From the NCBI GenBank assembly GCA_946887295.1, contig CAMPKP010000056.1, positions 1 to 18,752 on the forward strand: a stretch of DNA of 18,752 bases, read 5' to 3'. The stretch's first letter is position 1; every line of letters starts with the position of its first letter. The DNA comes from an uncultured Gemmatimonadota bacterium. Its GTDB lineage: Bacteria > Gemmatimonadota > Gemmatimonadetes > Gemmatimonadales > GWC2-71-9. Under the pieces are notes generated by a model. That model saw nothing but the letters and a program-made list of their open reading frames with translations, was not told the DNA's origin and did not search any database. The translations under genes were made by a program, and so were the position numbers. Of the stretch, positions 930-18,669 are shown piece by piece.

Positions 930-1783
930 TACCCGCGAGCTTCGACTACGTCCGCGCGGTGTCGGTGCGCGACGCGCTCAACTCACTGGCTGCGGGAGAC
1001 GGCAGCAAGATCCTCGCGGGCGGCCACAGCCTCCTGCCGATGATGCGCTTCCGCCTGGCGCAGCCGCCGCGCCTGGTGGACGTCAGCGACCTCGCCGAGC
1101 TCAGGGCCATCGTGGAGCACCGCAAGGGCGTGCGGATCGGCGCCACCACCACGTACCGCGACCTGCTCGATTCCCCGCTGGTGCGCGAGCGGTTCCCGCT
1201 GCTGGTCGAGTGCACCGAGAACATCGGCGATCTCCAGGTCCGCAATCGCGGGACCGTCGGCGGAAGCCTGGCGCACGCCGATCCCGCGTCGGACCTGCCG
1301 GCGGTGATGCTGGTGCTGGACGCGACGTTCAACCTCAGATCCAAGCGCGGCAGGCGCGCGGTGCGCGCCCGCGAGTTCTTCCAGGGCCCCTTCGCGACCG
1401 CCCTCGCGGAGGACGAGATGCTGATCGACCTCGTGCTGCCGCCGACCCCGCGGGGCGCGGGCACCGCGTACCTGAGCCAGGACCAGGCGGCGTCGGGGTA
1501 TTCGCTGGCGGGCGCGGCGGCGGTGATCGCCCGAACGCGGAAGACGGTGAGCCACGCCGCCGTCGCCCTCACCGGGGTGGGAGACATGTCCCGGCTGGTC
1601 GGCTCGACCGACCAGCTGGTCGGCACCAGGGCCGAGCCCGACGTGATCGGCCGGGTAGCCGCCGCCTCGGTGGAGGGGATCGAGATCACCGGGGACATCC
1701 ATGCGTCCGCCGTGTACCGGCGTCATCTGGCCACGGTGATCGTGCGCCGCGCGATTCAGAAGGCGCTGGAGCGTGCCGCCTAA
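926..1783 (+). CDS. coxM: CO dehydrogenase-like medium subunit, FAD-binding
   Basis: This 285-residue protein has the length and both signatures of the FAD subunit of molybdenum hydroxylases. The first is ILAGGHSLLPMMRFRLAQP at about residues 31-49, and the second is GTVGGSLAHADPASDLPAV at about 110-128; both loops contact FAD in this family. The C-terminal CO_deh_flav_C domain follows. In the complex it passes electrons from the 2Fe-2S small subunit (not in this window) to an acceptor. The start ATG at 926 overlaps the coxL stop (ATGA), which implies translational coupling. The order L then M is that of form II clusters; form I clusters run M-S-L. The same frame stays open upstream inside coxL, but the homology begins at MIPASFDYVRA. 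Confidence 0.95.
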   Translation: MIPASFDYVRAVSVRDALNSLAAGDGSKILAGGHSLLPMMRFRLAQPPRLVDVSDLAELRAIVEHRKGVRIGATTTYRDLLDSPLVRERFPLLVECTENIGDLQVRNRGTVGGSLAHADPASDLPAVMLVLDATFNLRSKRGRRAVRAREFFQGPFATALAEDEMLIDLVLPPTPRGAGTAYLSQDQAASGYSLAGAAAVIARTRKTVSHAAVALTGVGDMSRLVGSTDQLVGTRAEPDVIGRVAAASVEGIEITGDIHASAVYRRHLATVIVRRAIQKALERAA

Positions 1784-1809
1784 CCGCCCTCATCTCGAGG
1801 ACCGACCGC

Positions 1810-2259
1810 ATGAAGCTGCAGTTCTCCGGTGCACCCGAGATCGCCGCGTCGCGGCAGAAGGTCTGGGCGCGGCTCATGGACCCCGACTTCGTGGCGGCCT
1901 CGGCGCCCGGTGTGGAGGCGGTGGAGGCCGTCGACCCGACCCATTTCAACGTCGTGAGCGGGCTGGGAGTCGGCGCGGTCAAGGTCAAGTTCAAGCTCGA
2001 CGTGGAGCTGTCCGACATCGTCGAGCCGGAGCGGCTCCGGATGACCGCCCGGGGCAAGGCTCCGGGCTCCGCGGTGGACGTGGTCTCGAGCGTCCACCTG
2101 GAAGAGGCGGGCGACGGCCGGACCCGGCTCAACTGGTCGGCGACGAGCAACGTGAGCGGCACCGTGGCGAGCGTCGGCGCCCGGCTCCTGGAGGGCACCG
2201 CGCGGCGACTCACCGAGGAATTCTGGACCGACTTCGCCCGTCGGGTCGGCACCGGGTGA
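1810..2259 (+). CDS. coxG: CoxG-like SRPBCC protein, short form
   Basis: This 149-residue protein of the CoxG/SRPBCC (START-like) family begins MKLQFSGAPEIAASRQKVWA and contains the typical PGVEAVEAVDPTHFNV segment. It ends in the long SRPBCC helix, with EFWTDFARRVGTG at the terminus. In Oligotropha carboxidovorans CoxG takes part in attaching CO dehydrogenase to the cytoplasmic membrane. Here the usual C-terminal extension with a hydrophobic tail is missing; full-length family members are nearer 200 residues. Membrane anchoring is therefore not supported by the sequence. A GAGGA ribosome-binding site at 1797-1801 lies 8 bp before the ATG. It starts 26 bp after coxM and its TGA overlaps the coxD GTG start (GTGA). 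Confidence 0.88.
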   Translation: MKLQFSGAPEIAASRQKVWARLMDPDFVAASAPGVEAVEAVDPTHFNVVSGLGVGAVKVKFKLDVELSDIVEPERLRMTARGKAPGSAVDVVSSVHLEEAGDGRTRLNWSATSNVSGTVASVGARLLEGTARRLTEEFWTDFARRVGTG

Positions 2260-3158
2260 CCCAGCCACTCGACATAGACGCGGTCCAGGCCGCCTTCGCC
2301 CGCGAGGGCTACGTCGCGGACCGCGAGCTCTCCACCTCGATCTTTCTCTCGCTGGCCCTGCAGCGTCCGCTGCTGCTGGAAGGCGAGGCCGGCGTCGGCA
2401 AGACCGAGGTCGCCCGCACCCTCGCCGCCGTGCTCGGCGCGGAGCTGATCCGGCTGCAATGCTACGAAGGACTCGACGCGAGCACCGCCCTGTACGAGTG
2501 GGACTATCCCCGGCAGATGCTGGAGATCCGGCTGCTCGAGGCCCGGGGCGAGGCCAAGTCCGCGGCTACCCGCGACATCTTCGGACCCGACTTTCTCATC
2601 CGCCGGCCGCTGCTGCGCGCCCTGGAGAGCCGGGCGAGCGAGCCGCCGGTGCTGCTGATCGACGAAGTGGACCGCGCCGACGAGGAGTTCGAGGCCTTTC
2701 TGCTGGAGATTCTGAGCGATTTCGCGGTGAGCATCCCGGAGATCGGCACCGTCCGGGCGGACCGCCCTCCCCGAGTGATCCTCACGAGCAACCGCACCCG
2801 CGAGGTGCACGACGCGCTCAAGCGCCGGTGCCTCTATCACTGGATCGACTATCCCGCTCCCGACCGCGAGCTCGCCATCCTCCGCGCCCGGCTGCCCCGG
2901 GTGCCCGAGACACTGGCGCGCGACATCGTCGCCTTCGTCCAGCGTCTCCGGCAGGCCGACCTCACCAAGTCCCCCGGTGTCGCCGAGACACTCGACTGGG
3001 CGGCGGCGCTGCTGGCCCTCGGCGCCGGTCACCTCGACCCGGCGCAGGTGGAGCGGACGCTCGGCGTGCTCCTGAAGTACCAGGAAGACCTGGGAGGCAT
3101 GCGTGCCGGCGGTGCGCGCGGCATACTCGAGGAGACGCGGGCCACCGCCCGTGCCTGA
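2256..3158 (+). CDS. coxD: MoxR-family AAA+ ATPase, CoxD-like
   Basis: This 300-residue AAA+ protein has Walker A GEAGVGKTE (Lys49), Walker B LLIDEVDRADEEFE (Asp136-Glu137), a sensor-1 segment VILTSNRTREVHDALKRRC and the MoxR-type C-terminal lid. CoxD-type ATPases act with the VWA protein CoxE as a chaperone in building the sulfurated Cu-Mo centre of CO dehydrogenase; that role comes from O. carboxidovorans. The start is GTG at 2256, which overlaps the coxG stop and gives VTQPLDIDAVQAAFAREGY, the normal N-terminus. The open frame extends further upstream, but that part only shadows coxG. coxE begins 15 bp downstream, as expected for the MoxR/VWA pair. Confidence 0.93.
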   Translation: MTQPLDIDAVQAAFAREGYVADRELSTSIFLSLALQRPLLLEGEAGVGKTEVARTLAAVLGAELIRLQCYEGLDASTALYEWDYPRQMLEIRLLEARGEAKSAATRDIFGPDFLIRRPLLRALESRASEPPVLLIDEVDRADEEFEAFLLEILSDFAVSIPEIGTVRADRPPRVILTSNRTREVHDALKRRCLYHWIDYPAPDRELAILRARLPRVPETLARDIVAFVQRLRQADLTKSPGVAETLDWAAALLALGAGHLDPAQVERTLGVLLKYQEDLGGMRAGGARGILEETRATARA

Positions 3159-3173
3159 AGGGCCCTGGATCCC

Positions 3174-4310
3174 GTGATCCCGGCAACCGTGGACGGGGTG
3201 GCGTTCACCGCGAACGTCGCGCGGTTCGCCCGTGTGCTCCGGCGCGCCGGGCTCGAGGTGGAGCCGGGCCAGACCGCCACCTTCCTTCGGGCGCTCGTGC
3301 TGCTGGGCTTCGACCGCCGGAGCGACGTCCGAGCCGCGGGCCGCGCGATCTTCGCGCGCCGTCGCGAGGACGGAGCCGTCTACGACGCAGCGTTCGACCT
3401 GTTCTGGCGCCGCTCCGGAGCCGGGGGCGACCCGAGCGGCCGCCTGCCGCGCATCACGCAGCGGGAGCGCGGTGCCTCCGGCGAGATGCCGCCAGAAGGC
3501 ACTGAAGGCACCGGTGACGAGCCGGTCACCACGGTGCGGCCAGGCAGCGCCGGCGCGCGCGAGGTGCTGCGGACCGCCGACTTCGCCTCCCTCACGCCCG
3601 AGGAGGCCCGCGACGCACAGGCGATGCTGGAGGCGCTGCGCCCCAGGCTGCCACAGCGTCGCTCCCGGCGGAGCGGCGTCGGCCGGAGCGGGCACCGGCC
3701 CGCCGGCCGCGCCATGCTCCGCCACGCGCTCGCCAGCGGAGGCGAGGCGCTCCGCTGGCGCTGGCTGCGCCGGGCGACGCGCCCCCGTCCCATCGTCCTG
3801 GTCTGCGACATCAGTGGCTCGATGGAGCGCTACAGCCGGCTCATGCTCCGTTTCGCCCACGCGCTTCGGCGAACCGGCGCGCCGGTCGAGGTCTTCGTGT
3901 TCGGCACGCGCCTGACCCGGATCACCCGACAGCTCGCGGTCCGAAGTCCGGACGCGGCGCTGCGCCGCGTGGCCGAGAGAGTGGTAGACTGGAGCGGAGG
4001 AACCAGGATCGGCGAGAGCCTGCGCGAGCTGAACCGCCGCTGGGTGCGGCGGGCGGTGAGGAGCAGCGCCGTGGTCCTGCTGATGTCGGACGGCTGGGAG
4101 CGAGGCGACCCCGCTCTGCTCGGCCGCGAGATGGCCACACTGCGGCGCTCCTGCCACCGCCTCATCTGGATCGACCCGCTCGCCGTGCGGGCGGGGTTCG
4201 AGCCTGCGACCGCCGGCCTGCGAGCGGCGCTGCCGCATGTGGACGAGTTCGTGCCGGCGGCGAGCGTGGCGTCGCTGGCCGCGCTCGCCCACCGTCTGGG
4301 TAATCTGTGA
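3174..4310 (+). CDS. coxE: VWA-domain protein, CoxE-like
   Basis: This 378-residue CoxE-type von Willebrand factor A protein starts at GTG 3174. The N-terminal half is a helical region followed by a Gly/Arg-rich linker at about residues 80-190. The VWA domain carries an intact metal-ion-dependent adhesion site: DISGSM (Asp212, Ser214, Ser216), Thr277 in WSGGTRIGESL, and Asp306 in LLMSDGWERGD. The family partners the MoxR ATPase encoded just upstream to mature the hydroxylase active site in the cytoplasm. AAGGGC at 3158-3163 may be a weak ribosome-binding site. The stop at 4308-4310 is directly followed by the ribosome-binding site of the next gene, so the operon continues. Confidence 0.92.
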   Translation: MIPATVDGVAFTANVARFARVLRRAGLEVEPGQTATFLRALVLLGFDRRSDVRAAGRAIFARRREDGAVYDAAFDLFWRRSGAGGDPSGRLPRITQRERGASGEMPPEGTEGTGDEPVTTVRPGSAGAREVLRTADFASLTPEEARDAQAMLEALRPRLPQRRSRRSGVGRSGHRPAGRAMLRHALASGGEALRWRWLRRATRPRPIVLVCDISGSMERYSRLMLRFAHALRRTGAPVEVFVFGTRLTRITRQLAVRSPDAALRRVAERVVDWSGGTRIGESLRELNRRWVRRAVRSSAVVLLMSDGWERGDPALLGREMATLRRSCHRLIWIDPLAVRAGFEPATAGLRAALPHVDEFVPAASVASLAALAHRLGNL

Positions 4311-4320
4311 GGAGGGACCG

Positions 4321-5403
4321 ATGCGCGATCTGCTGACCGACTACGAGCGGCTGGTCCGAGCGGGGGAACCGTTCGGCCGGGCCGTGGTGACCAGCGTCTG
4401 GGGCTCCGCCCCGCGGGCCGAGGGCGCCTCGATGCTCGCCACCTCGAGCGGCACGATCGCGGGCTCCGTCTCCGGGGGATGCGTGGAAGGCGCCACCGCG
4501 ACCGAGATCGCCGCGGCGCTGGAACGGGGAACCCCCAGGCTGGTGACGTTCGGGGTGAGCGATGAGCGAGCGTGGGAGGTCGGTCTCGCCTGCGGCGGAA
4601 CGATCAAGGTCTTCGTCGAGCCGGCGGTCCGACCCGAGGTGCTCGCCGCCGCCCGGGGACCGGGCGGCGAAGTGGTGGCGACGATCGTCGAGGGCGCGGC
4701 ACCCGGGGTCTCGATGCGCGTGCTGGAGGACGGAAGGATGGAGGGCGACCTCGGCCCCGGCGTGCCCTCCGCCGCGGTCCGCGAAGCCGCCATCGCGGCC
4801 CTGCAGCGGGAGCGCAGCACGACCGTGCCGGTGAGGACCCCGGCTGGGGAGACATCGGTGTTCCTCGAGGTGTTCCCGCGGCAACCGCGACTGGTGATCT
4901 TCGGCGGCGTCCACGTCGCCGTAGCCCTGGTTCCGCTGGCCCGAATGCTCGGCTATCGCACGATCGTCGCCGACGGCCGCCAGTCGTTCCTCACCCGGGA
5001 GCGCTTCCCCGGCGCCGACGAGCTGATCCTCGCCTGGCCCGAACAGGCGTTCGAGCAGATCGGCCTGGACCCGTCGTGCTACGTCTGCCTTCTCTCCCAC
5101 GACCCCAAGTTCGACGAGCCGGCGCTCAAGGCGGCACTCCGCTCTCCCGCGAAGTACGTGGGAGCGATCGGCTCTCGGAAGACCCAGGCGGCGCGGCGAA
5201 AGTGGCTGGAGGAGGAGGGGTTCAGTCAGGCCGAGATCGCGAGGCTGCACGGACCGATCGGACTCGACCTGGGCGGCCGCCAGCCGGCCGAGACGGCGCT
5301 CGCGATCATGGCCGAGATGACGGCGGTGAGGTACGGCGGCGGGGCTGCCGGCGTCAGCCCCGCACCGGAAGGTCCAGGTCCTCGCTCACGATCTCCCGCG
5401 TGA
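4321..5403 (+). CDS. XdhC/CoxF-family molybdenum cofactor maturation protein
   Basis: This 360-residue XdhC/CoxF-family protein binds molybdenum cofactor and helps insert the sulfurated cofactor into molybdenum hydroxylases. The XdhC N-domain shows SVSGGCVEGA (Cys54) and EVGLACGGTIKVFVE (Cys91). The C-terminal Rossmann domain starts at about residue 191 with LVIFGGVHVA and continues to YVGAIGSRKTQA and HGPIGLDLGGRQPAETALA, all typical. The glycine motif reads GGVH rather than the common GAGH. GGAGGG at 4311-4316 is a good ribosome-binding site, and it lies 10 bp after coxE. The last 50 bp overlap the end of the convergent SARP gene; the tail beyond GGGAAGVSPAPEG is probably unstructured. Confidence 0.9.
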   Translation: MRDLLTDYERLVRAGEPFGRAVVTSVWGSAPRAEGASMLATSSGTIAGSVSGGCVEGATATEIAAALERGTPRLVTFGVSDERAWEVGLACGGTIKVFVEPAVRPEVLAAARGPGGEVVATIVEGAAPGVSMRVLEDGRMEGDLGPGVPSAAVREAAIAALQRERSTTVPVRTPAGETSVFLEVFPRQPRLVIFGGVHVAVALVPLARMLGYRTIVADGRQSFLTRERFPGADELILAWPEQAFEQIGLDPSCYVCLLSHDPKFDEPALKAALRSPAKYVGAIGSRKTQAARRKWLEEEGFSQAEIARLHGPIGLDLGGRQPAETALAIMAEMTAVRYGGGAAGVSPAPEGPGPRSRSPA

Positions 5404-7615
5404 CCGGCGGCCGGGAGTGCCGTACGGCCGGGGCTTCGGTCCAGCCGGCGCTCTCCATCAAACTCGCCGTGCGGCGATCGACCTCGTCGGACTCGGCCCG
5501 ATCCCCTGCGACGGTCGAGGCCAGGTCGAGCCAGGAAAGCGCCTCGGCAAATGCGAAACGCTGGAGCGCGGCCTCGCTGGCGAGCAGCGCCGAGCGGTAG
5601 GCCAGCTCCCGGTCCCCGCCCTGCTCCGCGTGGCGGGCGACCTCGGCCGCGATGCCGCGGGCGTCCGACGGCGGCGTCACGGCGTCCAGCGACGCGGCCA
5701 GCGCCCGGTGCACTTCCCGGCGGCGGGTCGGAGTCACCCCGTCGCGGACCACGTGCGCGACCACCGGGTGCAGGCACCGGTACACGCCCGCCCCTTCCTC
5801 CACCAGCCGGCGCTCCGCCAGCGCGTCGCACACGGTGGCGGCGTGCAGTCGTGAGATCCCGTGCACGTGCGACAGTACCTCGGGTCGGCATCCGGGGCCG
5901 CCCGCTACCGCGACGGTGATGAGCACTTCCGCCAGCTCCTCGGGCAGCCGGTTCACCTGCTCGGCGATGACATCGTGCACCGTGCGCGAGAACGGGAACT
6001 CCCGTCCGCCCGCGAGCGCCGACGGCGCCGCCGTCCATTCGCCGCTCTGCTCGTCGGCCGTGAGCAGCCCCTGCACGAACATCGACTTGATCAGCTCGAT
6101 GATGTAGAAGGGATTGCCGCCGGTGATCCGGTAGATCCGCCGCGCGAAGCGGCGGGCGCCGGTCGGCGTGCTCACGTGACCCATCTCACGCACCAGCCGC
6201 CAGACTTCCTCCTCGCCGAGACCGGACAGCGCGATCGTCTCGGCGCCGGCCTTGGCACGGAGCGCCCGGCAGAGCCGCGCGGCAGGGGCGTCGCGCTCCA
6301 GATCGCCCAGCGTCGTCGTCCCCAGCCAGAGGATCGGGGCCTGCTCCAGCCGCCGGGCGAGGACCTGGATGAGCTTGCAGCTGTCCTCGTCGCACCACTG
6401 GAGGTCATCCAGCGCGATCACCAGCGGCCGCTCGGCGGCGAGAGAGGCGATGAGCTGCGCGATGCCCTCGTACAGACGCCACGCGTCGGTCGGGTCTACG
6501 GTCGGCTCCGGCTCGGGCAGGCCGGGGAAACGCTGGCGCAGCTCCGGCAGCAGCCTCGCCGCCTCGGTGAGCCACTCCGGGTCGGTGGCCGCCAGACCGG
6601 GCGCGTCCATCGCTTCGCGGAGGGTCTCCACCAGGGGAGCGAAGGGCACGGCCGCGGTCGCGTCGTAGCCGCGCCCCCTGAGCACCGTGGCACCTCCTGC
6701 GACGACGGTCCGGAGAAACTCCTCGACGAGGCGCGACTTCCCGATTCCCGCGTCCCCCTCGATCAGCACGATCCTCCGCCTGCCCTTCGCCGCCTCCTTC
6801 CAGGCCGCCACCAGCGCGTTCCACTCCTGCTCGCGGCCGATGAGGGCGGCCTCGAAGGAGTGCGCCCGCGGGTACCACTCCTCGCTCACCGGCCGTCGCG
6901 GGGCCCTTTCGACTTCCGCCTCGATCCGCCGTCCCAGGGCGCTCAGCGCCTGGGAAGGCTCGCATCCGGTCTCCCGCTGCAGCGCGGACCGGTATTCGGC
7001 CAGCCTGGCCAACGCCGCACCCCGGTCCCCGGCGAGGTATCTCGCCTCGATCGCCACCCGGGCGGCCTCCTCGGAGAGGCGGTCGCAGGCCAGCCACCGG
7101 TCGGCGCGCTCGGCGGCCTCCCGCCAGCGGCGCCGGTCCATCGCGTCCCGGGCCAGGGTGCCGAGCACCTCGGCATATCGGTTGAGCAGACGGGTCCTGG
7201 TTTCGGCGGCCCACTCGTCGAACTGGGGTGCGTGGCGGATGGAGAACCCGGCCAGGAACCGGGGGATGTCGATCGCGGCCGCAGCCTCGGGGTCCCGCTC
7301 CGCGCTCTCCAGGAACCCGGTGACGTCGCAGCGGACCGGCTCGGCCAGCTCCACGAGCTGCCGGTCGCAGCGGACCACCTCGCCAAGCGAAGTGCGCAGC
7401 TGCTTGAGGGCCTGGCGCAGCGACGCGCGCGCCTCGGGCTCCGGGGACTCGCCCCAGAGCAGATCGGCAAGTGCCTCGCGGGTATGGGGATGCGGCTCGA
7501 GGGCCAGGTAGGCGAGAAGGGCGAGCGCCTTGGCGCCGGGCTGGGGCGTGACCCGCTCCCCGTCGGCCAGTCCGACGGTGGGCGATCCGATCAAGGTCAA
7601 CACGGGACCCGACAA
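5354..7615 (-). CDS. SARP/AfsR-like regulator: winged helix, BTAD and STAND ATPase domains
   Basis: This 753-residue regulator has three parts. Residues 1-95 form an OmpR-like winged helix typical of SARPs, with GAKALALLAYLALEP and LWGESPEPEARASLRQAL. Residues about 100-245 form the bacterial transcriptional activation domain, with FDEWAAETRTRLLNRY and YRSALQRETGCEPSQA. From about 260 a STAND/AAA_16 ATPase follows, with GREQEWNAL, Walker A EGDAGIGKSR (Lys293) and Walker B LVIALDDLQW (Asp403-Asp404). The remainder looks helical and ends without a LuxR helix-turn-helix. SARPs bind spaced direct heptamers and activate secondary-metabolite or peptide genes. The start is TTG at 7615, with AGGA about 9 bp upstream; an ATG at 7622 is out of frame. 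It diverges from the small-peptide gene, whose region it may control. Confidence 0.9.
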   Translation of the reverse strand: MSGPVLTLIGSPTVGLADGERVTPQPGAKALALLAYLALEPHPHTREALADLLWGESPEPEARASLRQALKQLRTSLGEVVRCDRQLVELAEPVRCDVTGFLESAERDPEAAAAIDIPRFLAGFSIRHAPQFDEWAAETRTRLLNRYAEVLGTLARDAMDRRRWREAAERADRWLACDRLSEEAARVAIEARYLAGDRGAALARLAEYRSALQRETGCEPSQALSALGRRIEAEVERAPRRPVSEEWYPRAHSFEAALIGREQEWNALVAAWKEAAKGRRRIVLIEGDAGIGKSRLVEEFLRTVVAGGATVLRGRGYDATAAVPFAPLVETLREAMDAPGLAATDPEWLTEAARLLPELRQRFPGLPEPEPTVDPTDAWRLYEGIAQLIASLAAERPLVIALDDLQWCDEDSCKLIQVLARRLEQAPILWLGTTTLGDLERDAPAARLCRALRAKAGAETIALSGLGEEEVWRLVREMGHVSTPTGARRFARRIYRITGGNPFYIIELIKSMFVQGLLTADEQSGEWTAAPSALAGGREFPFSRTVHDVIAEQVNRLPEELAEVLITVAVAGGPGCRPEVLSHVHGISRLHAATVCDALAERRLVEEGAGVYRCLHPVVAHVVRDGVTPTRRREVHRALAASLDAVTPPSDARGIAAEVARHAEQGGDRELAYRSALLASEAALQRFAFAEALSWLDLASTVAGDRAESDEVDRRTASLMESAGWTEAPAVRHSRPPVTREIVSEDLDLPVRG

Positions 7616-7763
7616 TCGGCATTGTCCTGGGGGATTCGAAGGACCAACCTACGCCCGATTCACGGAAGGGCAAGAGCGATTCACGCGGAATTCACGGGCC
7701 CACCCGACATTGGCTCCAGTTCTTTCGCCAGCGATCGAGACCGCCACACATTCGGAGGGTACC
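7616..7763. promoter_or_regulatory. Divergent intergenic region between the SARP gene and the peptide gene
   Basis: This 148 bp non-coding stretch should hold the promoters of both divergent transcription units. On the minus strand a weak pair, TTGCCC (7673-7668) and TAGGTT (7651-7646) with 16 bp between them, could serve the SARP gene. On the plus strand TTGGCT (7710-7715) with GATCGA (7733-7738) is only a poor match, so no plus promoter can be assigned by eye. The three ATTCACG repeats described separately lie inside. The peptide ribosome-binding site GGAGGG is at 7754-7759. Confidence 0.5.
7658..7696 (+). repeat. Three ATTCACG direct repeats, candidate SARP operator
   Basis: Exact copies of ATTCACG lie at 7658-7664, 7679-7685 and 7690-7696, so the start-to-start spacing is 21 and 11 bp. 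All three face the same way and fall on about the same helical face. SARP regulators classically bind heptamer direct repeats spaced 11 or 22 bp apart, and a SARP gene begins 42 bp to the left of the first copy. The first copy also falls within the spacer of the weak SARP promoter candidate. Operator function is inferred; the repeats and spacings are seen directly. Confidence 0.5.
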
Positions 7764-7913
7764 ATGGACAGCTCCAAGAGCCAGTTCCGCATCGAGTTGA
7801 CTCCCGAGCAGAAGGACAAGGTCCGCAGCGCCACCGGGAAGGACGCCGAGGCGGTCGAGCTTTCCGTCGAAGAGCTGGAGGAGAGGATCGCCCCCCGGAA
7901 GAAGCAGCTCTAA
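7764..7913 (+). CDS. 49-residue charged peptide, candidate substrate or precursor of the adjacent PqqD/M50/HlyD system
   Basis: A strong ribosome-binding site, GGAGGG at 7754-7759, sits 4 bp before the ATG and supports translation. The peptide begins MDSSKSQFRIELTPEQKDKV, has a central GKDAEAVELSVEELEERIAP segment and ends RKKQL. It has no Cys, Trp or Tyr, no signal peptide and no membrane segment. It should be mostly helical and highly charged. I do not recognise a named family. It stands first in a unit whose later product has a PqqD-like domain, a fold known to bind leader peptides of ribosomally made natural products, and a membrane protease. It may thus be a substrate, leader-like precursor or regulator. 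There is no obvious modifiable core, so a classical RiPP role is uncertain. Confidence 0.72.
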   Translation: MDSSKSQFRIELTPEQKDKVRSATGKDAEAVELSVEELEERIAPRKKQL

Positions 7914-7932
7914 GCAGCCTTCCGGATGGCTT

Positions 7933-7969
7933 GAAGCGCCGGCACCGGGTCATCGGGCGCCGGCGCTTC
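7933..7969 (+). terminator. Strong hairpin between peptide gene and GAF-HlyD gene
   Basis: A perfect 11 bp inverted repeat, GAAGCGCCGGC (7933-7943) and GCCGGCGCTTC (7959-7969), encloses a 15-base loop. It begins 20 bp after the peptide stop. No T-run follows, so it is not a canonical intrinsic terminator. It could be a partial terminator or an mRNA-stabilising 3' end that lets the short peptide message outnumber the downstream genes, an arrangement common for small-peptide operons. Confidence 0.5.
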
Positions 7970-8024
7970 GCGCGTCGAGAGTCCGTCCTCTTTCGGAACC
8001 GCGCCGCGCGCCACATACTCTGGC

Positions 8025-9968
8025 ATGACCGACCTGCTTGGCGTCCCCCCGGTTTCGCAGGAGGAGTTGCGCCGCGAGGTCGAGCGTCTACGCCTGCTGC
8101 ACTCCATCACGCTCGAATTCAACGCCACGCTCGACTTCGACGAGCTGCTCCCCCGGGTGTTCGACCGGGTGATGACCGCCCTGGGAGCCGAGGGAGGCTC
8201 GCTCTGGATCGCCGAGGGCGACATGCTGCACTGCCGCCTCGCGGTCGGTGGGGCGGCGGCGTCCCGGCTGGTCGGCGCCCAGATGCCGGTGGGCACCGGG
8301 TTCGTGGGCGACGTGGCGCAGAAGCAGCGCACCACGATGGTCATGGAGGCGGTGCGCGATCCGCGCTTTCAGGAGGCCACCGACAGCACCGAGGAGTCCG
8401 TCGCCAGCACCGTCATGGCCACTCCCATGGTGGCCGGCGGCGTGACCGTCGGCGCCATCCAGGTGGTCAACAAGCGGACCGGCAGCGGAGTCTTCAACGA
8501 GCAGGACAAGGAGCTGCTCGAAGGGCTCGCGGCCGCGGCCGGGAGCGCGCTGCGCAATGCGCGGCTGCACGGGGCGGAGCGGCGCGCCCACGACCTCGCC
8601 CTGCTGCTCGAGATCAGCCGCGAGATCACCGCCACCCTGGATCTGGACCGGGTGCTCCAGTCGGTGGTGAATCTCGCCTCCCGCGCGCTGAGCTTCGATC
8701 GCGGAGCCGTAGCGCTCTACGAGAAGGGCCGCTGCGAGATCCGCGCGGTCGCCGGACAGGAAACGGTGGATCCCGACGATCCCCGCCTGCGGGACCTCGT
8801 GGCCCGGGCCGAGTGGGCGGCGGGACGAGGCGAGCCGCTCTACCTCACCGATGCCGAGGACCCCGCATCGGACGCCGAGCGGCTGTTCGTGACGGTGTTC
8901 GGCCAGGATCTCGCGGCCGACAAGGTGCGGAGCGCCCTGTACCTCCCGCTCAAGGACGAGGAGGGGGTGCTCGGGGTTCTCGTCTTCGAATCGGGAGATG
9001 CCGATTTCGCGGCCGAGACCCAGCGGGAAGTCGCCGCCATTCTCGCCAACCAGACCGGGGTCGCGCTGCGCAACGCGCAGCTCTATCACCAGGTTCCGAT
9101 GGTGGACGCGCTGGGCGCACTGGCGGCGCGCAAGCAGGCGCTGCTGGCGCTCCCGCGCCGGCGGCTCCAGGTGTACGCCGGCGCGGCCATTCTCCTCCTG
9201 GCCGGACTCACGCTGATCCGATGGCCCTTCCGGGTGCCGGGGGAGGCGCCGGTGCTGCGTCCCAGCGGATACACTCCGGTCCGCGTGCTGGTGGAGGGAA
9301 CAGTGGAGCGGGTCGCGGTCCGCGAAGGGGCGGAGGTGCGGCGGGGCGACCTTCTCGCCGTCCTCCGCGCCACGCCGCTCGCGGCCGAGCGGGAGGGAGC
9401 CGCGGCCGATGCGGCGACCGCCGACCGGCTCGCGGCGCAGGCCGCGAGCCGAGGCGACCCAGCCGAGGAGCGGCTCCATCGCATCAGGGGCGAGGCGCTT
9501 CGGCGCGAGCTGGCCCTGCTGGACGAGCAGCTCGCTTTGAGGACCGTGCGGGCACCCGCGGCTGGGCTGGTGCTGACGCCCCGGCTGGACGAGCGCACCG
9601 GGAGCTCGCTTTCCGAGGGAGACCAGCTGCTCGTGCTGGGCCGGACCGATACGCTCGAGCTCGAGTTCGGCGTGGCGCAGCAGGACATCCTCCGGGTCCG
9701 GCCGGGCCAGGACGTCCGGCTGCGGGTGGATGCGCTGCCCACCCGAACCTTCGAGGGCCGGGTGACCTCGATCGCACAGTTGCCGATGGAGCGGGACGGG
9801 GAGGTCATGTACCCGGTGCGGGCCGCGGTCGCCAACTCGGACGGACTCCTCAAGCCCGAGATGGCCGCGCACGCGCGGGTGCTCACCGATCCGGCGTCCA
9901 CGCTCACCAGGGCACTGCGGGCGCCGGCACGCTGGATCCGTCTGACGTGGTGGAGGATCTGGTCATGA
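8025..9968 (+). CDS. GAF-GAF-transmembrane-HlyD fusion protein
   Basis: This 647-residue protein has four parts. Residues about 20-170 form a GAF domain (ALGAEGGSLWIAEG, VGTGFVGDVAQ, ATPMVAGGVTVGAIQVVNK). Residues about 190-345 form a second GAF domain (ALSFDRGAVALYEKGRCEI, YLPLKDEEGVLGVLVFESG). One membrane helix lies at about 383-401 (YAGAAILLLAGLTLIRWPF). From about 410 an HlyD-like adaptor part follows, with two lipoyl-like half motifs (VEGTVERVAVREGAEVRRGD and VRAPAAGLVLTPRLDERTG) and a beta-barrel ending EMAAHARVL. GAF domains sense small ligands in the cytoplasm and the adaptor would sit in the periplasm, so the protein could couple sensing to export. No clear ribosome-binding site precedes the ATG; GGAACC at 7995-8000 and TACTCT at 8016-8021 hint at a local promoter. 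The stop overlaps the next start (ATGA). Confidence 0.88.
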   Translation: MTDLLGVPPVSQEELRREVERLRLLHSITLEFNATLDFDELLPRVFDRVMTALGAEGGSLWIAEGDMLHCRLAVGGAAASRLVGAQMPVGTGFVGDVAQKQRTTMVMEAVRDPRFQEATDSTEESVASTVMATPMVAGGVTVGAIQVVNKRTGSGVFNEQDKELLEGLAAAAGSALRNARLHGAERRAHDLALLLEISREITATLDLDRVLQSVVNLASRALSFDRGAVALYEKGRCEIRAVAGQETVDPDDPRLRDLVARAEWAAGRGEPLYLTDAEDPASDAERLFVTVFGQDLAADKVRSALYLPLKDEEGVLGVLVFESGDADFAAETQREVAAILANQTGVALRNAQLYHQVPMVDALGALAARKQALLALPRRRLQVYAGAAILLLAGLTLIRWPFRVPGEAPVLRPSGYTPVRVLVEGTVERVAVREGAEVRRGDLLAVLRATPLAAEREGAAADAATADRLAAQAASRGDPAEERLHRIRGEALRRELALLDEQLALRTVRAPAAGLVLTPRLDERTGSSLSEGDQLLVLGRTDTLELEFGVAQQDILRVRPGQDVRLRVDALPTRTFEGRVTSIAQLPMERDGEVMYPVRAAVANSDGLLKPEMAAHARVLTDPASTLTRALRAPARWIRLTWWRIWS

Positions 9969-10957
9969 GACCGACCGCCTTTCTGCTGACCGGCACGATG
10001 GCCGCCGCACTGGCCTGCGGAACACCCTCGGCGGACGCGGGCGGGAAGCCGGTCCAGGCCGGTGAGCCCGCCAAGAGCGAGCCGACAGCCACCTCCCTCG
10101 TCACGGTCGACACCCTCACGGTCGAAGTGCCGCTGTCGCTTCCCGCGCAGCTCTACGTGGAGCACGACGCGGCGATCTATGCCCGGTCGCAGGGAATCGT
10201 CGAATCCATCCTGGTGGATCTGGGGACCAGAGTCGAGCGCGGCCAGCTGCTCGCGCGGCTGGAGAGCGCCGACCAGTCCATCGCCCTCGCCCAGGCGCGC
10301 GACCGGCACGACGACGCGGTGGTGCAGGCCGAGCGGCAGCGCGCGCTCAAGTCCGCCGGCGTGGTCACGCAGGCCGACTCGGAGCGGGTGGAGCTCGACC
10401 TCCGCGCGGCGACCCTCGCGCTCCAGAAGGCGCAGCGCGATCACGACCTCACGCGGATCGTGGCGCCGTTCACCGGCGTGGTGACCGGCCGCACCGCCCG
10501 GATCGGCCGCCTGGTCGCCGACGGAGATTCCCTGTTTCACCTCACCGCCCTGAGCCCGGTGCTCGCGTCGGTGCGGATTCCCGAGGCCTCCGCGTTCGGC
10601 GTGAAGCTGGGGGCGGAGGCCGACGTGCGGGGTCCGCGGGGAGAGAAGGCCCGGGCGCGCGTCGTGCGCGCCAGCCCCGTCATCGACCCGGCGAGCGGCA
10701 CCCGCGAGGTGGTTCTCCAGCTCGTCGCCGGGGATCGCCTGCCCCCGGGCAGCGGCGTCACTCTGCGGCTGGGCTCGGAGTCCCGGCGGGTGGTCGCCGT
10801 GCCCCGGGAAGCCATCGGTGAGGGATACGCCCTCGTCTGGGACTCGGACCGGACTTCGCTGCGGCAGGTCACCGTGGGCAGCGAGCTGCCGGGCGAGCGG
10901 GTGGAGGTGGTGACAGGCCTGGTTGCGGGGGAGAAGGTGGTCCGGAGCGGGCCATGA
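9965..10957 (+). CDS. Periplasmic adaptor (membrane fusion) protein, probable lipoprotein
   Basis: This 330-residue protein is of the RND-type efflux adaptor family (HlyD/AcrA-like). The N-terminus has a hydrophobic signal and a lipobox-like ALAC ending at Cys18, followed by a flexible Gly/Ser/Ala/Lys stretch. The first lipoyl half is GIVESILVDLGTRVERGQLL and the second is RIVAPFTGVVTGRTARIGRL. Between them lies a short coiled hairpin of about 65 residues, and a beta-barrel and membrane-proximal domain follow, with VVAVPREAI near the end. The lipobox has Ala at -3, so lipidation is likely but not certain. Adaptors of this type normally bridge an inner-membrane pump and a TolC-like channel, yet no pump or channel gene is present here. 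It is joined by ATGA overlaps to both neighbours, so it is surely part of the same unit. Confidence 0.9.
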   Translation: MRPTAFLLTGTMAAALACGTPSADAGGKPVQAGEPAKSEPTATSLVTVDTLTVEVPLSLPAQLYVEHDAAIYARSQGIVESILVDLGTRVERGQLLARLESADQSIALAQARDRHDDAVVQAERQRALKSAGVVTQADSERVELDLRAATLALQKAQRDHDLTRIVAPFTGVVTGRTARIGRLVADGDSLFHLTALSPVLASVRIPEASAFGVKLGAEADVRGPRGEKARARVVRASPVIDPASGTREVVLQLVAGDRLPPGSGVTLRLGSESRRVVAVPREAIGEGYALVWDSDRTSLRQVTVGSELPGERVEVVTGLVAGEKVVRSGP

Positions 10958-13014
10958 GCGAGCGCCCCCGCCTGCGCACCGACCTCATTCTGGTCGAGCA
11001 GACCTACCGCGGCGAGCAGAGCTTCATCGTGAAGGACCCCTCGACCCGGAAGTATTTCCGATTCCGTCCGGTGGAGGTCACCGTCATGCGCGCGCTGGAC
11101 GGCCGGCGCACCCTGGGTGAGGCCGCGGCGGCGCTGATGGAGGAGGGGGTCAAGGTGAGCGCGACCGCCTTGGGCCGCTTCGCCGAGAAGCTCAAGACGA
11201 TGGGCCTCTGCGAGCGAACGCTGCGGGAGAGCTCGGTGCTGCTCATCGAGCGACTTCGGGCCCAGCGGCGCGTCCGGCTGCGCAGCGGCCGCTTCAAGGG
11301 CGACATCCTGCGGCTGCGCTGGTCCATGGGCGATCCCGACCGGTTGATGGACCGCACCATTCCCTATCTGCGCTTCCTCTTCACCCGCCGGTTCCTGACC
11401 ATCTCGGTCGCGCTCTTCGCGGTGTATTTCGTGATACTGGCGCTCAAGTGGTCGGAGTTCATCGGCGCCATGGGGGACGTGTATCTCCTGCGCGCCTCGG
11501 TCGGCGACTACGTCCTCCTGTGGGTGGCGACCACGGGGATCATCGCGGTGCACGAGCTGGCGCACGGCTACACCTGCAAGCACTACGGCGGACAGGTCCA
11601 CGAGATCGGCGTGATGATGTTCTACTTCGACATCGCGTTCTTCTGCAACGTGAACGACGCCTGGACCTTTCCCGAGCTGAAGTCGCGGCTGTGGGTCACG
11701 GCCGCGGGATCGTGGATCGAGATGGTCGTCGCCAGCCTCGCGGCGATCGTATGGTGGGTGGCCGCTCCCGGCACCTTCGTCGCCGATGTCGCGCTCGCGA
11801 TCGTCATGGTCGGCGGGATCGCCGCGGTGCTGGTGAACCTGAATCCGTTGATCCCGCTGGACGGCTACTACGCCCTGAGCGACTGGCTGGAAGTACCCAA
11901 CCTGCGCCGCCGCGCCTTCGCCCACCTCACCTGGATCATCAAGACCAAGTGGCTCGGTCTCGAGCTCGCGATGCCGGCCGCGGACGAGCGGGAGCAACGG
12001 ATCTTCGCCCTGTACGGCACGCTCGCCGCGGCGTACACCGGAATGATCTTCCTGGTCGCGGGCGCGATCGCCTACGGCTGGCTCTCCCGGATTTTCGGGG
12101 CCGTCGGCGTCGCCGCTCTCGTGCTCGTGGTCTGGCTGGTGACCCGGCAGGCTCGCCGGAACCTGAGGCGAGCCGTCGGAGACGCCTGGCGGGAGCTTCG
12201 CGCGAAGTGGACGGCCGGGGGCAAGGGACGCAGGGTCCGGAACGGCCTCACCGCCGTCGCGGCCGCCGTCGCGCTGGCCGGACTGGCCCCCTGGCCCATC
12301 ACCATCACCGGGCCCTTCGTCGTGTCCCCCTCCGGGAGCGCCGTCGTGGTGGCGCCCGACAGCGGCGTGGTATCGGAGGTGCTGGTCCGGGAGGGCAGCA
12401 CGGTCGGCGCCGGAGCTTCCCTGGCGACGATCCGCAACTTCGATCTGGAGCGGGACGCGGCCGCGGCGACCCGGGCGGTGGACTCCCTCGGCGCGCGCAA
12501 GTCGCAGGCACGCGCCCGCGGCCGGGAGGGCGACGTGGCGCGGATCGCCGCCGAGGAGCAGGCCGAGGGCGCCCGGCTCGCGGGCATGCGGGAGCGGGTC
12601 CGATCGCTGTCCATCCGCGCGCCCGGCGAAGGGGTCGTGGCAGACCCCAGGCCTGATACCCTGGTCGGCCGGACGGTCTCGCTGGGTGACACGCTCTTCA
12701 GGCTCGCCGCACCGAGCGGGGTGGAGGCACGCATCGCTCTGGAAGGTGCCGGCGCGTCGATGGCCCGCGCGGGGCAGCGAGTCCGACTGATCGCCCACGC
12801 CGACCCCGCGTTCCGGTTCGAGGGCGCGGTCGCGAGCGTGGCGGCGTCCGCGTCGCACGGCGGCGCGGTGGAGTCCCGGGTGCGACTCGCCGGGGGTGAG
12901 GCCCTGCGCCCCGGCATGACGGGCGAGGCCAGGATAACGCTCAGGCGGTCCAACGGTTGGGCCGCGCTCTGGTGGGCGATCCGGAGCCGGATTCGGACCG
13001 ACGTCCTCCTCTGA
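10954..13014 (+). CDS. PqqD-like/M50 intramembrane metalloprotease/HlyD fusion
   Basis: This 686-residue fusion begins with about 90 residues of PqqD-like winged fold (FRFRPVEVTVMRALDGRRTL, LGRFAEKLKTMGLCE). An M50-type multipass membrane protease follows, with zinc motif HELAHGY (His200, Glu201, His204) and NPLIPLDG (Asn297, Asp303), the third-ligand motif of site-2 proteases. About seven membrane helices lie between residues 146 and 447. From about 450 to the end lies an HlyD-like part with half motifs VVAPDSGVVSEVLVREGSTV and SIRAPGEGVVADPRPDTLVG. It resembles proteins annotated as putative peptide zinc metalloproteases, such as YydH of the yydF peptide locus. All catalytic residues are present. 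Inference: it binds a cytosolic peptide through the PqqD part, cuts it in or at the membrane, and supports its passage. Confidence 0.9.
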   Translation: MSERPRLRTDLILVEQTYRGEQSFIVKDPSTRKYFRFRPVEVTVMRALDGRRTLGEAAAALMEEGVKVSATALGRFAEKLKTMGLCERTLRESSVLLIERLRAQRRVRLRSGRFKGDILRLRWSMGDPDRLMDRTIPYLRFLFTRRFLTISVALFAVYFVILALKWSEFIGAMGDVYLLRASVGDYVLLWVATTGIIAVHELAHGYTCKHYGGQVHEIGVMMFYFDIAFFCNVNDAWTFPELKSRLWVTAAGSWIEMVVASLAAIVWWVAAPGTFVADVALAIVMVGGIAAVLVNLNPLIPLDGYYALSDWLEVPNLRRRAFAHLTWIIKTKWLGLELAMPAADEREQRIFALYGTLAAAYTGMIFLVAGAIAYGWLSRIFGAVGVAALVLVVWLVTRQARRNLRRAVGDAWRELRAKWTAGGKGRRVRNGLTAVAAAVALAGLAPWPITITGPFVVSPSGSAVVVAPDSGVVSEVLVREGSTVGAGASLATIRNFDLERDAAAATRAVDSLGARKSQARARGREGDVARIAAEEQAEGARLAGMRERVRSLSIRAPGEGVVADPRPDTLVGRTVSLGDTLFRLAAPSGVEARIALEGAGASMARAGQRVRLIAHADPAFRFEGAVASVAASASHGGAVESRVRLAGGEALRPGMTGEARITLRRSNGWAALWWAIRSRIRTDVLL

Positions 13015-13100: not shown

Positions 13101-13928
13101 ATGTTGCCGCTGGTCCAGAAGGCCTTCGAGGGTCAGTACCGGGTCGAGCGCGAGATCGGGAAAGGCGGCAATGCCCGGATCTACCTCGCGCGCGACCGCG
13201 AGGATCGCCAGGTCGCCCTCAAGGTCCTGCATCCGGAGCTCCTGGTCAGCGTCGCAGCCGACCGGTTTCTCCGGGAGATCCGGCTTTGCTCCCAGCTCCA
13301 GCATCCGCACATCGCGCACCTGCTCGACTCCGGCGAGCGGGACTGGATCGTGTACTACGTCATGACGTACGTGGAGGGCCCGACCCTGCGCGAGCATCTC
13401 TCCAGCGTGTCCCGGCTCTCGGTCGGCGAGACGGTCCGGCTGGCGGACGACCTGCTCGACGCGCTCGATCACGCGCATGGTCACGGAATCGTCCACCGGG
13501 ACGTGAAGCCGGAGAATGTGGTCATGGCGCCCGCGGGCGCGGTGCTGCTCGATTTCGGGATCGCCCGCGCGGTCGCCGCCTCGGGCAGTGACCGGCTCAC
13601 CCGCTCCGGGATCGCGGTCGGCACCTCGACCTACATGAGTCCCGAGCAGATCACCGCGCTGAAGGAGATCGACCGCCGGAGCGACATCTATTCGCTCGGT
13701 TGCGTGCTCTTCGAGAGCCTGGCGGGACAGCCGCCGTTCATCCACCGGAACGAGGCGGTCGTGCTTCAGCTTCACCTCACCCAGCCGGCGCCGGACTTGC
13801 GCGGACTCCGCCCCGATGCCCCGAAGGAGCTGGTCGAGGGCATCGCGCGCGCGCTCGAGAAGGCGCCCGAGTCCCGCTGGCAGTCAGCCGCGGCGATGCG
13901 GGAGTCGCTGGCGGGGGCCCGGGTGTAG
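13101..13928 (+). CDS. Ser/Thr protein kinase, soluble, kinase domain only
   Basis: This 275-residue protein is almost entirely a bacterial Hanks-type kinase domain. Visible elements are the P-loop IGKGGNARIYLA, the ATP-anchoring Lys41 (VALKVL), the catalytic loop HRDVKPEN (Asp134), DFG at Asp151, GTSTYMSPEQ and DRRSDIYSLGCVLFE. It should be active. It has no membrane helix and no sensor domain, unlike the kinase downstream. The chosen ATG at 13101 gives MLPLVQKAFEGQYRVEREIG, the usual spacing to the P-loop, though its ribosome-binding site is poor. A TTG at 13032 with AGAGGGA about 8 bp upstream is an in-frame alternative adding 23 residues. It begins 86 bp after the M50 fusion gene and could belong to that unit. 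A short GC hairpin (13035-13055) lies in the gap. Confidence 0.88.
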   Translation: MLPLVQKAFEGQYRVEREIGKGGNARIYLARDREDRQVALKVLHPELLVSVAADRFLREIRLCSQLQHPHIAHLLDSGERDWIVYYVMTYVEGPTLREHLSSVSRLSVGETVRLADDLLDALDHAHGHGIVHRDVKPENVVMAPAGAVLLDFGIARAVAASGSDRLTRSGIAVGTSTYMSPEQITALKEIDRRSDIYSLGCVLFESLAGQPPFIHRNEAVVLQLHLTQPAPDLRGLRPDAPKELVEGIARALEKAPESRWQSAAAMRESLAGARV

Positions 13929-16799: not shown

Positions 16800-18182
16800 A
16801 TGGGTGGTCCTCGTCTCTTCGTTGCCGCGTTGGCCCTCGCGGGGCTCACTGCTGGGTGCTCGGAACAGCAGAATGACGTGCCAAGCGGTCCGAGCTTCGC
16901 CCCGCCAGTGCAGAATGGCTGCGATGCCGGCGCGGTCAGCACATTGGTGAAAGCCGAGTTCGGCGCTTCCAGCTCGCAGTCCAGTCTGGCAACAACCATG
17001 AAGAACTACGGGGGCAAGACGGCGCAGGCCACCTATGTCGGCTACCGGCTCCTCGACGCCATCGCCACCAAGTACGACATCGCGGCGAATCAGGCGGCCG
17101 GGACGCTGAACGCCTCGAAGCTCACGATCGCGCTTCTCAAGTGCATGAACGTCGGCTCCGCGAGCGTGCCGGCGAGCTTCGAGACGGAGCTCGGCTCCAC
17201 CGGGGCGTACGCCGTTCGCGGTTGGCCGGGAGACGCCCGCACGGTCACTTCCCACGACGGCACCTGGGTCCTGGAGCCCCCGTCAGGCGACAACTGGGAA
17301 GCCATCACCGAGCTCGCCACCACGGGTCTGCCCGATTCGGTCGGGCACCTGTTCCTGGCCTACGGACACCCCGGAGATGCCGACGCATTCACCGACGATG
17401 AGCTCGTGGGCACCGTATTCGATTGGAGCACCCTCCCCGAGGCGACGTTCTCCGGCACCGGCGTGGTGGTCGGCGAGTGCACCCAGCCATCCAACTACAT
17501 CCAGCACAACGCGGCAGGCGACGGTCCCGAAGTCCTCGGCTTCATCTTGCCGAGCTGCGCGCCGGAAAACGGCGGGCTGATGCCCGAGCGCGACCCACGT
17601 ACCTTCGCCGAACGGGTGGTCCGTTGGCTCAGCCCGAAGCCGGCCTTCGCCGCATTGGTGGCCACGGTGGCGAGCGGTGGAGGGAAGAGCAAACTGAGCC
17701 CCTTCGGGCTCATCAATCCAGGAAACGTGGACCTGGAGCCCGAGTTCTCCTGGAAGAAGTCGGGCAACACGGTGGGCAAGCCGTTCTCACCCACCCCGAA
17801 ATATCAGATCCTCAGTGGGGGCGGTACCCTGTTCCGTCAGGACTACGTACTCATCTGGCTGGAAGTGCTGGGGAACGAGGGCACGAACGTCAAAATCTGC
17901 AATAACTGGGCGTACACCAACGCCGATGGGCGCGCACACTTCCCGGAGGCCTACCTGAACAAGTCCGGCGGCTACACCATTCGGGCGAGGACCACCGGCA
18001 CGATATCCAAGCCCGATGCCGTGGGCGATGACATTCCGGTCGTGCCGGCCGGGGAGTCGGTGCTCTCGCCCCTGATAAACGTGAAGAACGGGCCCGTTCC
18101 CGCATGTCCCAATACCTACACCGGCACGGGCGATGTGCCGCCGCCCCCAGGACCCAACGGGTTCCCTGATCTAGTCCCATGA
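16800..18182 (+). CDS. Secreted lipoprotein-like protein of unknown function
   Basis: This 460-residue protein has a lipoprotein-type signal, MGGPRLFVAALALAGLTAGC, with Cys20 as the likely lipidated residue (Thr at -3 makes the lipobox slightly atypical). A Ser/Pro linker follows. The middle part (about 40-290) I do not recognise; it contains several Cys residues that could pair. Residues about 300-430 look like a bacterial Ig-like beta domain, with YTNADGRAHFPEAYLNKSGG and YTIRARTTGTI typical of such folds. The C-terminus is a Pro/Gly-rich tail (GDVPPPPGPNGFPDLVP). GGAGG at 16788-16792 with 7 bp spacing decides the ATG at 16800. It has its own promoter and is followed by a hairpin terminator, so it is a single-gene unit. 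A role at the outer membrane or cell surface is inferred only from the signal. Confidence 0.82.
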   Translation: MGGPRLFVAALALAGLTAGCSEQQNDVPSGPSFAPPVQNGCDAGAVSTLVKAEFGASSSQSSLATTMKNYGGKTAQATYVGYRLLDAIATKYDIAANQAAGTLNASKLTIALLKCMNVGSASVPASFETELGSTGAYAVRGWPGDARTVTSHDGTWVLEPPSGDNWEAITELATTGLPDSVGHLFLAYGHPGDADAFTDDELVGTVFDWSTLPEATFSGTGVVVGECTQPSNYIQHNAAGDGPEVLGFILPSCAPENGGLMPERDPRTFAERVVRWLSPKPAFAALVATVASGGGKSKLSPFGLINPGNVDLEPEFSWKKSGNTVGKPFSPTPKYQILSGGGTLFRQDYVLIWLEVLGNEGTNVKICNNWAYTNADGRAHFPEAYLNKSGGYTIRARTTGTISKPDAVGDDIPVVPAGESVLSPLINVKNGPVPACPNTYTGTGDVPPPPGPNGFPDLVP

Positions 18183-18222: not shown

Positions 18223-18669
18223 TCACCCCGTAGTCCGCCGCCGCACTTCCCGCAGCACCCGCCGCTGGGCGGCGGCGTCCCTCACCGCCAGAAAGATCGT
18301 GTCGTCTCCAGCGATCGTCCCGACCACCTCGGGCCATGCCAGGCGGTCGAGCGCCACTGCCACACGGTTGGCCTCACCCGGCGGCGTGTGCAGGACGACC
18401 AGCGCGTCCCCGGCGGGTTCCACCGCCAACACCCCCTCGACGATCCGGCGCTCGTCGGGGTCTACCGGGGTGATGCCTCGGTAGGGCCGCCGATAGGCGC
18501 CGTCCACCTTCACCAGCCCGAGCGCAGCGATGTCGCGGCTCACCGACGACTGGGTCACGTCCCACCCCGCTGCCGAGAGCACCTCGGCCAGCTCCTCCTG
18601 CGTATGGATCGCACGGGTGCTGATCAGCTCCAGGATCTTGAGGTGGCGCTTCCGGCGGTCCGCGGTCAT
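18223..18669 (-). CDS. argR: Arginine repressor
   Basis: This 148-residue protein has the standard ArgR length and layout. The N-terminal winged helix (about 1-70) contains RHLKILELISTRAIHTQEEL and the recognition helix TQSSVSRDIAALGLVKV. The C-terminal oligomerisation and arginine-binding domain ends with VGTIAGDDTIFLAV, where the paired Asp residues contact arginine in the family. ArgR hexamers repress arginine biosynthesis genes or activate catabolism when arginine is bound. The ATG at 18669 is preceded by GGAGGG with 7 bp spacing on the minus strand. The start overlaps the stop of a frame entering from the right edge (ATGA), so argR is probably the last gene of an operon. No arginine enzyme gene is visible in the window. 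Confidence 0.95.
   Translation of the reverse strand: MTADRRKRHLKILELISTRAIHTQEELAEVLSAAGWDVTQSSVSRDIAALGLVKVDGAYRRPYRGITPVDPDERRIVEGVLAVEPAGDALVVLHTPPGEANRVAVALDRLAWPEVVGTIAGDDTIFLAVRDAAAQRRVLREVRRRTTG

Follow-up and report, generated by a model that had tools for sequence, protein, structure and literature searches.

The locus described here raises the question of what a 49-residue peptide does beside a set of protease and adaptor genes that has no recognised pump of its own. It lies on contig CAMPKP010000056.1 of an uncultured Gemmatimonadota bacterium, of which 18,752 nt were analysed (hereafter the window), and comprises, in order, a divergent BTAD/AAA_16 regulator gene, the peptide gene, a gene for a GAF-GAF-TM-HlyD protein (TM, transmembrane segment), an RND-type adaptor gene, a gene for a PqqD-M50-HlyD fusion and two Ser/Thr kinase genes (Table 1). 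ATGA overlaps link the three genes that end with the fusion, here called the trio. Re-analysis confirmed the four-gene peptide/trio arrangement reported in a preliminary description of the window. Scans with Pfam and related models recognised no modifying enzyme, ABC permease or ATPase, TolC or giant repeat protein in the window, which upholds the earlier statement that modifying enzymes and ABC pumps are missing there. We lean towards the reading that the locus is a minimal, peptide-sized export branch with an LExR sorting signal and no ABC pump in its core set.

To place the peptide among related genomes, 298 Gemmatimonadota genomes were sampled, with the fusion defined as a match over the M50 region at E<1e-80 and the peptide as a match at E<=1e-4. 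The fusion was present in 25 genomes, the peptide in 26 and both in 19, so that the peptide accompanies the fusion in 19/25 fusion genomes versus 7/273 others (Fisher p=2e-19, a value that overstates independence since the genomes are related). The two lie on the same contig in 18 of the 19 genomes, separated by 154-5395 nt, and on different contigs in G007. Conservation of the peptide beside the fusion gene, on which the preliminary description depended, was thus borne out. Among the six fusion genomes without a profile match to the peptide, a 44-residue peptide bearing LEQRIAP or LEERIAP lies immediately upstream in G116 and G234, G284 has a 61-residue peptide with LEERIAT, G008 has a partial peptide match at a contig end, and in G006 the contig starts within the GAF gene. 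Conversely, of the seven genomes with a peptide and no fusion match, G183 and G299 have the peptide on contigs of 8.4 and 5.8 kb, and another contig of G299 ends with the GAF-HlyD and adaptor genes.

The peptide appears to belong to a large soil family with variable tails, for which no described function was found in the open-access literature. A protein search returned 682 homologues at E<=1, and the best 120, window protein included, were analysed; these are the matches most similar to the query, and what follows applies to the near family. In this set the front is almost invariant, with a mean of 0.35 bits per column across 40 positions; it ends in LEERIAP and is followed by a tail whose positions 1-6 carry 1.7-3.7 bits. 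The 120 sequences have 104 distinct tails, every one of them net positive (120/120). In the mapped loci, 48 motif-bearing peptides have tails of 3-27 residues, net positive in 36/48, and tandem copies with differing tails are present. Synonymous changes equal or exceed nonsynonymous changes in the front codons of 8/9 peptide pairs, and the tail codons have zero synonymous changes in 9/9 pairs compared; this pattern shows different constraint on front and tail, not positive selection. An AlphaFold2 model (mean predicted local distance difference test 82) gives a beta-alpha-beta-alpha front, with the tail outside any element, suggesting that the front is probably folded. The motif LE.R..P is intact in 43/46 called peptides from fusion-bearing genomes and in 2/7 from other genomes, both of the latter from G183 and G299, and it occurs in the first 75 residues of 0/539 control proteins (called proteins >=100 aa of the mapped loci). 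Retention or loss of the motif thus tends to go with that of the fusion, although fusion-free cases are few.

This pattern can also be read without export. The folded front would then serve the protease-adaptor complex as a small subunit or as a regulator, the trio would export something else, and the tail would be unconstrained. Such a role agrees with conservation that sits in the predicted folded front and not in the tail, and with fronts that persist without an intact motif in genomes where no fusion was detected (G034, G038, two peptides of G056, G243, and a separately read peptide of G110), so that the front appears to have a role of its own. We nevertheless consider it unlikely. A substrate would better explain why tandem copies carry different tails, why distal copies stand under the same box, and why the motif is mostly lost where the fusion is absent; moreover, the tails are not random, being net positive at the frequencies given above.

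Several peptides depart from the window type. In four distal peptides of genomes G217 and G003 (L081:5694-5876, L082:9342-9518, L083:6382-6573 and L086:8855-9034) the tail is of the approximate form R[LV][AV][AS]NHNE[TP], which differs from the variable tails at the trio, and the TTCACG promoter box described below is absent at three of the four. Peptides at L077:10161-10295, L079:10027-10161 and L078:8640-8825 adjoin longer fusions (764-788 aa) and have tails that are His/Asp-rich or consist of Ser/His/Asp or Gly-Ser-Lys-His repeats, not short and basic ones. Front relatives of about 70 residues (L095:8801-9016, L096:9066-9284, and L094 of G110) occur in genomes without a detected fusion; their C-terminal half differs, LEERIAP is missing, and they adjoin a Ser/Thr kinase-cluster gene. 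The name DUF1192, given to the peptide in some sources, was rejected, as the match is sub-threshold and spans just 16 residues.

Residues 3-88 of the fusion match the lasso-peptide leader-binding protein (B1) in a predicted fold comparison, pointing to a winged-helix fold of the PqqD type, as in RiPP recognition elements (RRE; RiPP, ribosomally synthesised and post-translationally modified peptide). The leader-binding domain proposed in the preliminary description is supported by this match. Its protease motifs also hold up: HELAH (HExxH) and NPLIPLDG (NPxxPLDG-type) are intact in the window fusion, and their key residues are invariant in 38 aligned sequences. The Pfam model PF02163 scores 19.0 against a cut-off of 27.2 for the window fusion, and the relatives L121 and L124 lie above the cut-off. 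A sequence search of the PDB with the fusion gave a weak match to an archaeal S2P (3b4r, E 0.044), and the VIA-align list of the fusion, filled by matches to the adaptor domain, holds no M50 structures. NF041824 matches the fusion at 204 bits and also finds it in G116 and G001, under its cut-off.

These features invite comparison with RiPP systems. Epipeptide (YydH/LiaK) and daptide (MpaP) loci likewise have an M50 protein adjoining a small peptide gene; here, in contrast, HlyD is fused to the protease and no modifying enzyme or ABC pump is recognised in the window. A leader-binding domain of the lasso-peptide B1/PqqD type is here fused to an intramembrane protease, and the HlyD-type adaptors recall type I secretion, which differs in having the ABC permease/ATPase that is not recognised in the window. 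The peptide might then be the precursor of a RiPP, its tail modified by an enzyme from another part of the genome and its maturation carried out by the M50 protease as in epipeptides and daptides. The PqqD-type domain, the relatedness of the fusion to the daptide and YydH/LiaK proteases, and the leader-like front with its variable tail would suit such a precursor. We regard it as distinctly improbable, as the tails have no common modifiable residue (Cys 0.1%, Ser 4.4%, Thr 5.5%), the protease models stay far under their cut-offs (204 vs 300 bits; 31.8 vs 225 bits), and no modifying enzyme is recognised in the window, to which the search was confined.

One point of the preliminary interpretation calls for correction: relatives of the same gene set also accompany much larger proteins. 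A search with the fusion found 73 plasmid records, of which 40 were listed, with relatives at 24-33% identity among those listed (best E 3e-35), and 14 loci were opened. On proteobacterial plasmids, the fusion and adaptor relatives adjoin giant proteins of the LEPR-XLL/DUF4347 type. These loci share with the window a homologous PqqD-M50-HlyD fusion, an HlyD or GAF-HlyD protein and an RND-type adaptor, the last annotated in most plasmid loci opened. The window GAF-HlyD protein is 31% identical to that of L132 across the 258-aa HlyD part, and the similarity of the window adaptor to a plasmid adaptor is weak (E 2e-4). A GAF domain is present in two of the three plasmid HlyD proteins that were scanned, those of L124 and L132, and that of L121 gives no GAF match. 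The plasmid loci differ from the window in proposed substrate and in accompanying genes: there a giant repeat protein carries the motif near its N-terminus, and here a peptide of about 50 aa carries it near its end; TolC is annotated in 7/14 plasmid loci and a shortened SecA-like ATPase stands beside the fusion gene in four alphaproteobacterial ones, and neither is near the trio in the window. Annotations of these SecA-like genes differ, being SecA, DEAD/DEAH helicase or prepilin peptidase (assigned here by Pfam in three, by eye in L132).

A similar motif occurs in many of the long plasmid proteins. Within the first 60 residues of a neighbouring or nearby long protein, [LIM]ExR was found in 9/14 plasmid loci (Pseudosulfitobacter, Niveispirillum, Variovorax, Citrobacter, Azospirillum brasilense, Pontibrevibacter, Methylosinus, Thalassospira and Rhodobacteraceae M382), as LExR in seven of these; the background in the first 75 residues of proteins from the Gemmatimonadota loci is 13/539 for LE.R and 23/539 for [LIM]E.R. 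In M382, the LEPR-XLL protein lies past the record start, and further open reading frame stands between it and the machine. The LEPR-XLL model NF012209 is above its cut-off in 4/8 giant N-termini scanned. The preliminary description had held that trio homologues consistently paired with another transporter, with no peptide, would speak against it. The plasmid sets go part of the way, with a giant protein, often TolC, in four cases the SecA-like ATPase, and no short peptide annotated at the giant-protein loci; the giant itself, however, bears [LIM]ExR in 9/14 loci opened. That description as a whole is hence partly supported.

Since the machine is shared, LExR is shared, and the motif is lost where the machine is lost, LExR would be the signal read by the fusion and the part downstream of it the cargo. 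A signal common to plasmid giants and Gemmatimonadota peptides appears to be the simplest account. The adjoining giants could instead mean that the trio secretes larger LExR surface proteins encoded elsewhere, the peptide being a decoy or a sensor of export capacity. This seems highly improbable: in the mapped Gemmatimonadota loci, to which the search was limited, no called protein >80 aa has LE.[RK][ILV].P, all called genes are at most 1,500 aa long, and peptides are the usual neighbour of the trio. Two other candidates were set aside. A second SecA that might serve as the Gemmatimonadota motor was not found when 21 fusion genomes were compared with 21 others; G001 has two partial SecA matches at contig ends and G217 has none. 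The Ig-like (immunoglobulin-like) RSP/RSP2 proteins of IncHI plasmids were considered, as the Citrobacter IncHI plasmid has a fusion relative; the Citrobacter protein is not shown to be an RSP, and passages on RSP/RSP2 say that these proteins leave by a type IV system (PMC6764697, PMC8730810).

A recurrent promoter box lies upstream of many peptide genes, usually beside the divergent regulator. The regulator matches BTAD at 37.8 bits and AAA_16 at 112.5 bits, and its DNA-binding Trans_reg_C match is below cut-off (19.8 vs 26.2). Its cluster has 23 genes, found in 22/46 mapped sequences, and the partner in divergent pairs is the peptide gene in 17/19 and the GAF-HlyD gene in 2/19. A 7-mer repeat spaced 11 bp occurs in 15/19 of the regulator intergenic regions, as against 0-8 for other spacings from 7 to 33. 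The box TTCACG-N5-TTCACG, with one mismatch allowed, lies <=150 nt upstream of 28/53 peptide genes versus 1/553 other genes. Exact boxes number 37 in 32 genomes (0-4 each): 30 in 15 fusion genomes, two in G056 and five in 16 others. Of the 30 in fusion genomes, 15 are upstream of a called peptide, and none of the other seven was seen in that position. Among 30 box loci inspected, a motif-bearing peptide stands directly downstream in 11 (some of them overlapping loci of one cluster) and not in 19. Distal peptides with no fusion nearby also have the box, some with one mismatch (L080, L084, L086, L092 and L093). SARP regulators recognise direct repeats at a spacing of 11 bp in the promoters they control; the BTAD domain of the regulator and the spacing of the TTCACG repeats agree with this. 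The regulator is thus SARP-like and probably an activator of the peptide promoter. A terminator-like hairpin follows the peptide gene (fold z -2.1 in the window, -2.75 in L008, -4.2 in L009), without a T-run in the window. In a variant order (L108, L110, L113 and L115), a CRP-family regulator follows the fusion, the peptide lies downstream of the regulator, and there is no TTCACG box; the family assignment is from Pfam for L115 and from clustering for the other three.

The genes present, their co-occurrence, the motif, the predicted match in fold, the box upstream of the peptide genes and the variation pattern are shown; from these we infer how the parts might work together. The SARP-like activator would bind the TTCACG repeats and turn the peptide gene on, and the hairpin 3' of that gene may raise peptide output above that of the machine. 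Through its PqqD-like domain, the fusion would bind the peptide front ending in LEERIAP, and the M50 membrane protease would cleave at LEERIAP or just after it. The three adaptor domains of the HlyD type would then hand the short, often basic variable tail on into the periplasm or out of the cell, where its probable role is that of a signal or weapon specific to the strain. Gating of this passage from the cytoplasm may fall to the GAF domains. One may speculate that so small a cargo needs no SecA-type motor.

It should be noted that several observations weigh against export of the tail through a shared LExR machine. The window has no recognised TolC, ABC exporter or secretion ATPase and the 21 fusion genomes have no extra full-length SecA, which leaves the model without a recognised channel or energy source. 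The variable tail could simply be unconstrained, and cleavage at the motif is a proposal. The peptide model has a predicted template modelling score of 0.48 and no good PDB match (best E 1.9). G130 has the trio with no peptide of the LEERIAP family in the flanks scanned, and 15 of the 30 exact boxes in fusion genomes are not at a peptide gene. The motif is near the C-terminus in window-type peptides and near the N-terminus in giants, and it is absent from the neighbouring protein in 4/14 plasmid loci: Phyllobacterium, Magnetospirillum (from the annotated start), Azospirillum thermophilum (which starts within a repeat, perhaps as a fragment) and Calothrix, where one long neighbour has none in its first 150 residues and the M50 protein lacks the HlyD part; the remaining locus, Ensifer, was not read to the protein start. 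Neither NF012209 nor PF07595, the Pfam model of a planctomycete signal, matches the window peptide (E<=1) or four relatives (E<=10), so that three or four shared residues, the order of the genes and the homologous machine are what connects the peptides to LEPR-XLL proteins.

Planctomycetes offer a further lead. Passages of PMC8567305 give surface-protein signals as RRLxxExLExRxLLA in Rhodopirellula and LxLExLExRxxP in Tuwongella (T. immobilis), citing a 2004 paper for the export motif; those passages name no machine behind the motif, and neither M50 nor HlyD occurs in the text. LEKLEERIAP of L077 fits LExLExRxxP, and LEERIAP of the window fits the part LExRxxP, a resemblance that may point to a link, although the Pfam model is unmatched. 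In G116 and G001, PF07595 gave weak matches (E 0.085 and 0.315), as it did in 5/14 control genomes. More broadly, and tentatively, it is possible that an RRE-M50-adaptor fusion that reads and cuts LExR, and passes what follows to a series of adaptors without an ABC pump in the core set, defines a separate secretion route, whose cargo ranges across phyla from giants (often with TolC and in some loci a SecA-like motor) to tails of a few residues, which is also the machine of the planctomycete LExLExRxxP signal, and which in Gemmatimonadota serves a SARP-controlled repertoire of tails. If so, these tails would form a hypervariable set of extracellular peptides. Both signal types would be tied to homologous protease-adaptor machines, and the question could be put to the test with a synthesisable 49-residue substrate. 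The open-access literature searched (subscription journals and bioRxiv lay outside its scope) gave no recognised description of this machine or of LEERIAP peptides and lists LEPR-XLL in just two papers; in the available text of the polymorphic toxin paper PMC3482391, HlyD, M50 and TolC do not occur. The LEERIAP motif, variable tail, tandem copies, TTCACG box, SARP-like regulator and plasmid giant-protein relatives did not figure in the preliminary description.

Table 1. Features of the peptide locus (window positions unless a locus is given)
Feature	Position	Strand	Basis
SARP-like regulator (BTAD + AAA_16/STAND)	5354..7615	-	Pfam
Three TTCACG repeats at 7659, 7680 and 7691, 21 and 11 bp apart	7659..7696	+	
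GGAGG ribosome-binding site of the peptide gene	7754..7758	+	sequence
49-residue peptide gene: conserved front (1-44) and tail RKKQL	7764..7913	+	
LEERIAP motif, proposed sorting/recognition signal	7875..7895	+	
Variable tail RKKQL, proposed released part	7896..7910	+	
Terminator-like hairpin between peptide gene and trio	7933..7969	+	fold z -2.1
GAF-GAF-TM-HlyD membrane fusion protein	8025..9968	+	Pfam; TM by eye
RND/HlyD-type periplasmic adaptor, probably a lipoprotein	9965..10957	+	TIGR01730 above cut-off; lipobox by eye
PqqD/RRE-M50-HlyD fusion	10954..13014	+	
PqqD/RRE-type domain of fusion, residues 3-88	10960..11217	+	
HELAH zinc-protease motif of fusion	11551..11565	+	H200, E201, H204 invariant in 38 sequences
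NPLIPLDG, second M50 motif of fusion	11842..11865	+	N297, P298, L299, P301, L302, D303, G304 invariant in 38
HlyD/MacA-like adaptor domain of fusion, residues 424-677	12223..12984	+	
Ser/Thr protein kinase	13101..13928	+	Pkinase 156 bits
SecA-like ATPase genes of plasmid loci	L124:10026-12050, L132:9091-11076, L133:9093-11051, L134:9174-11090		

Of the genes flanking the locus, a kinase-cluster gene stands immediately 3' of the fusion gene in eight mapped sequences (window, L001, L002, L003, L097, L098, L099 and L105). Positions 3-5403 hold a molybdenum hydroxylase/CO-dehydrogenase-like cluster (MoCoBD, FAD-binding, CoxG, AAA, CoxE-like VWA and XdhC), with no apparent connection to the peptide locus. 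Towards the other end of the window, the open reading frame at 16800-18182 has no Pfam match, and an arginine repressor gene lies near the end, at 18223-18669.

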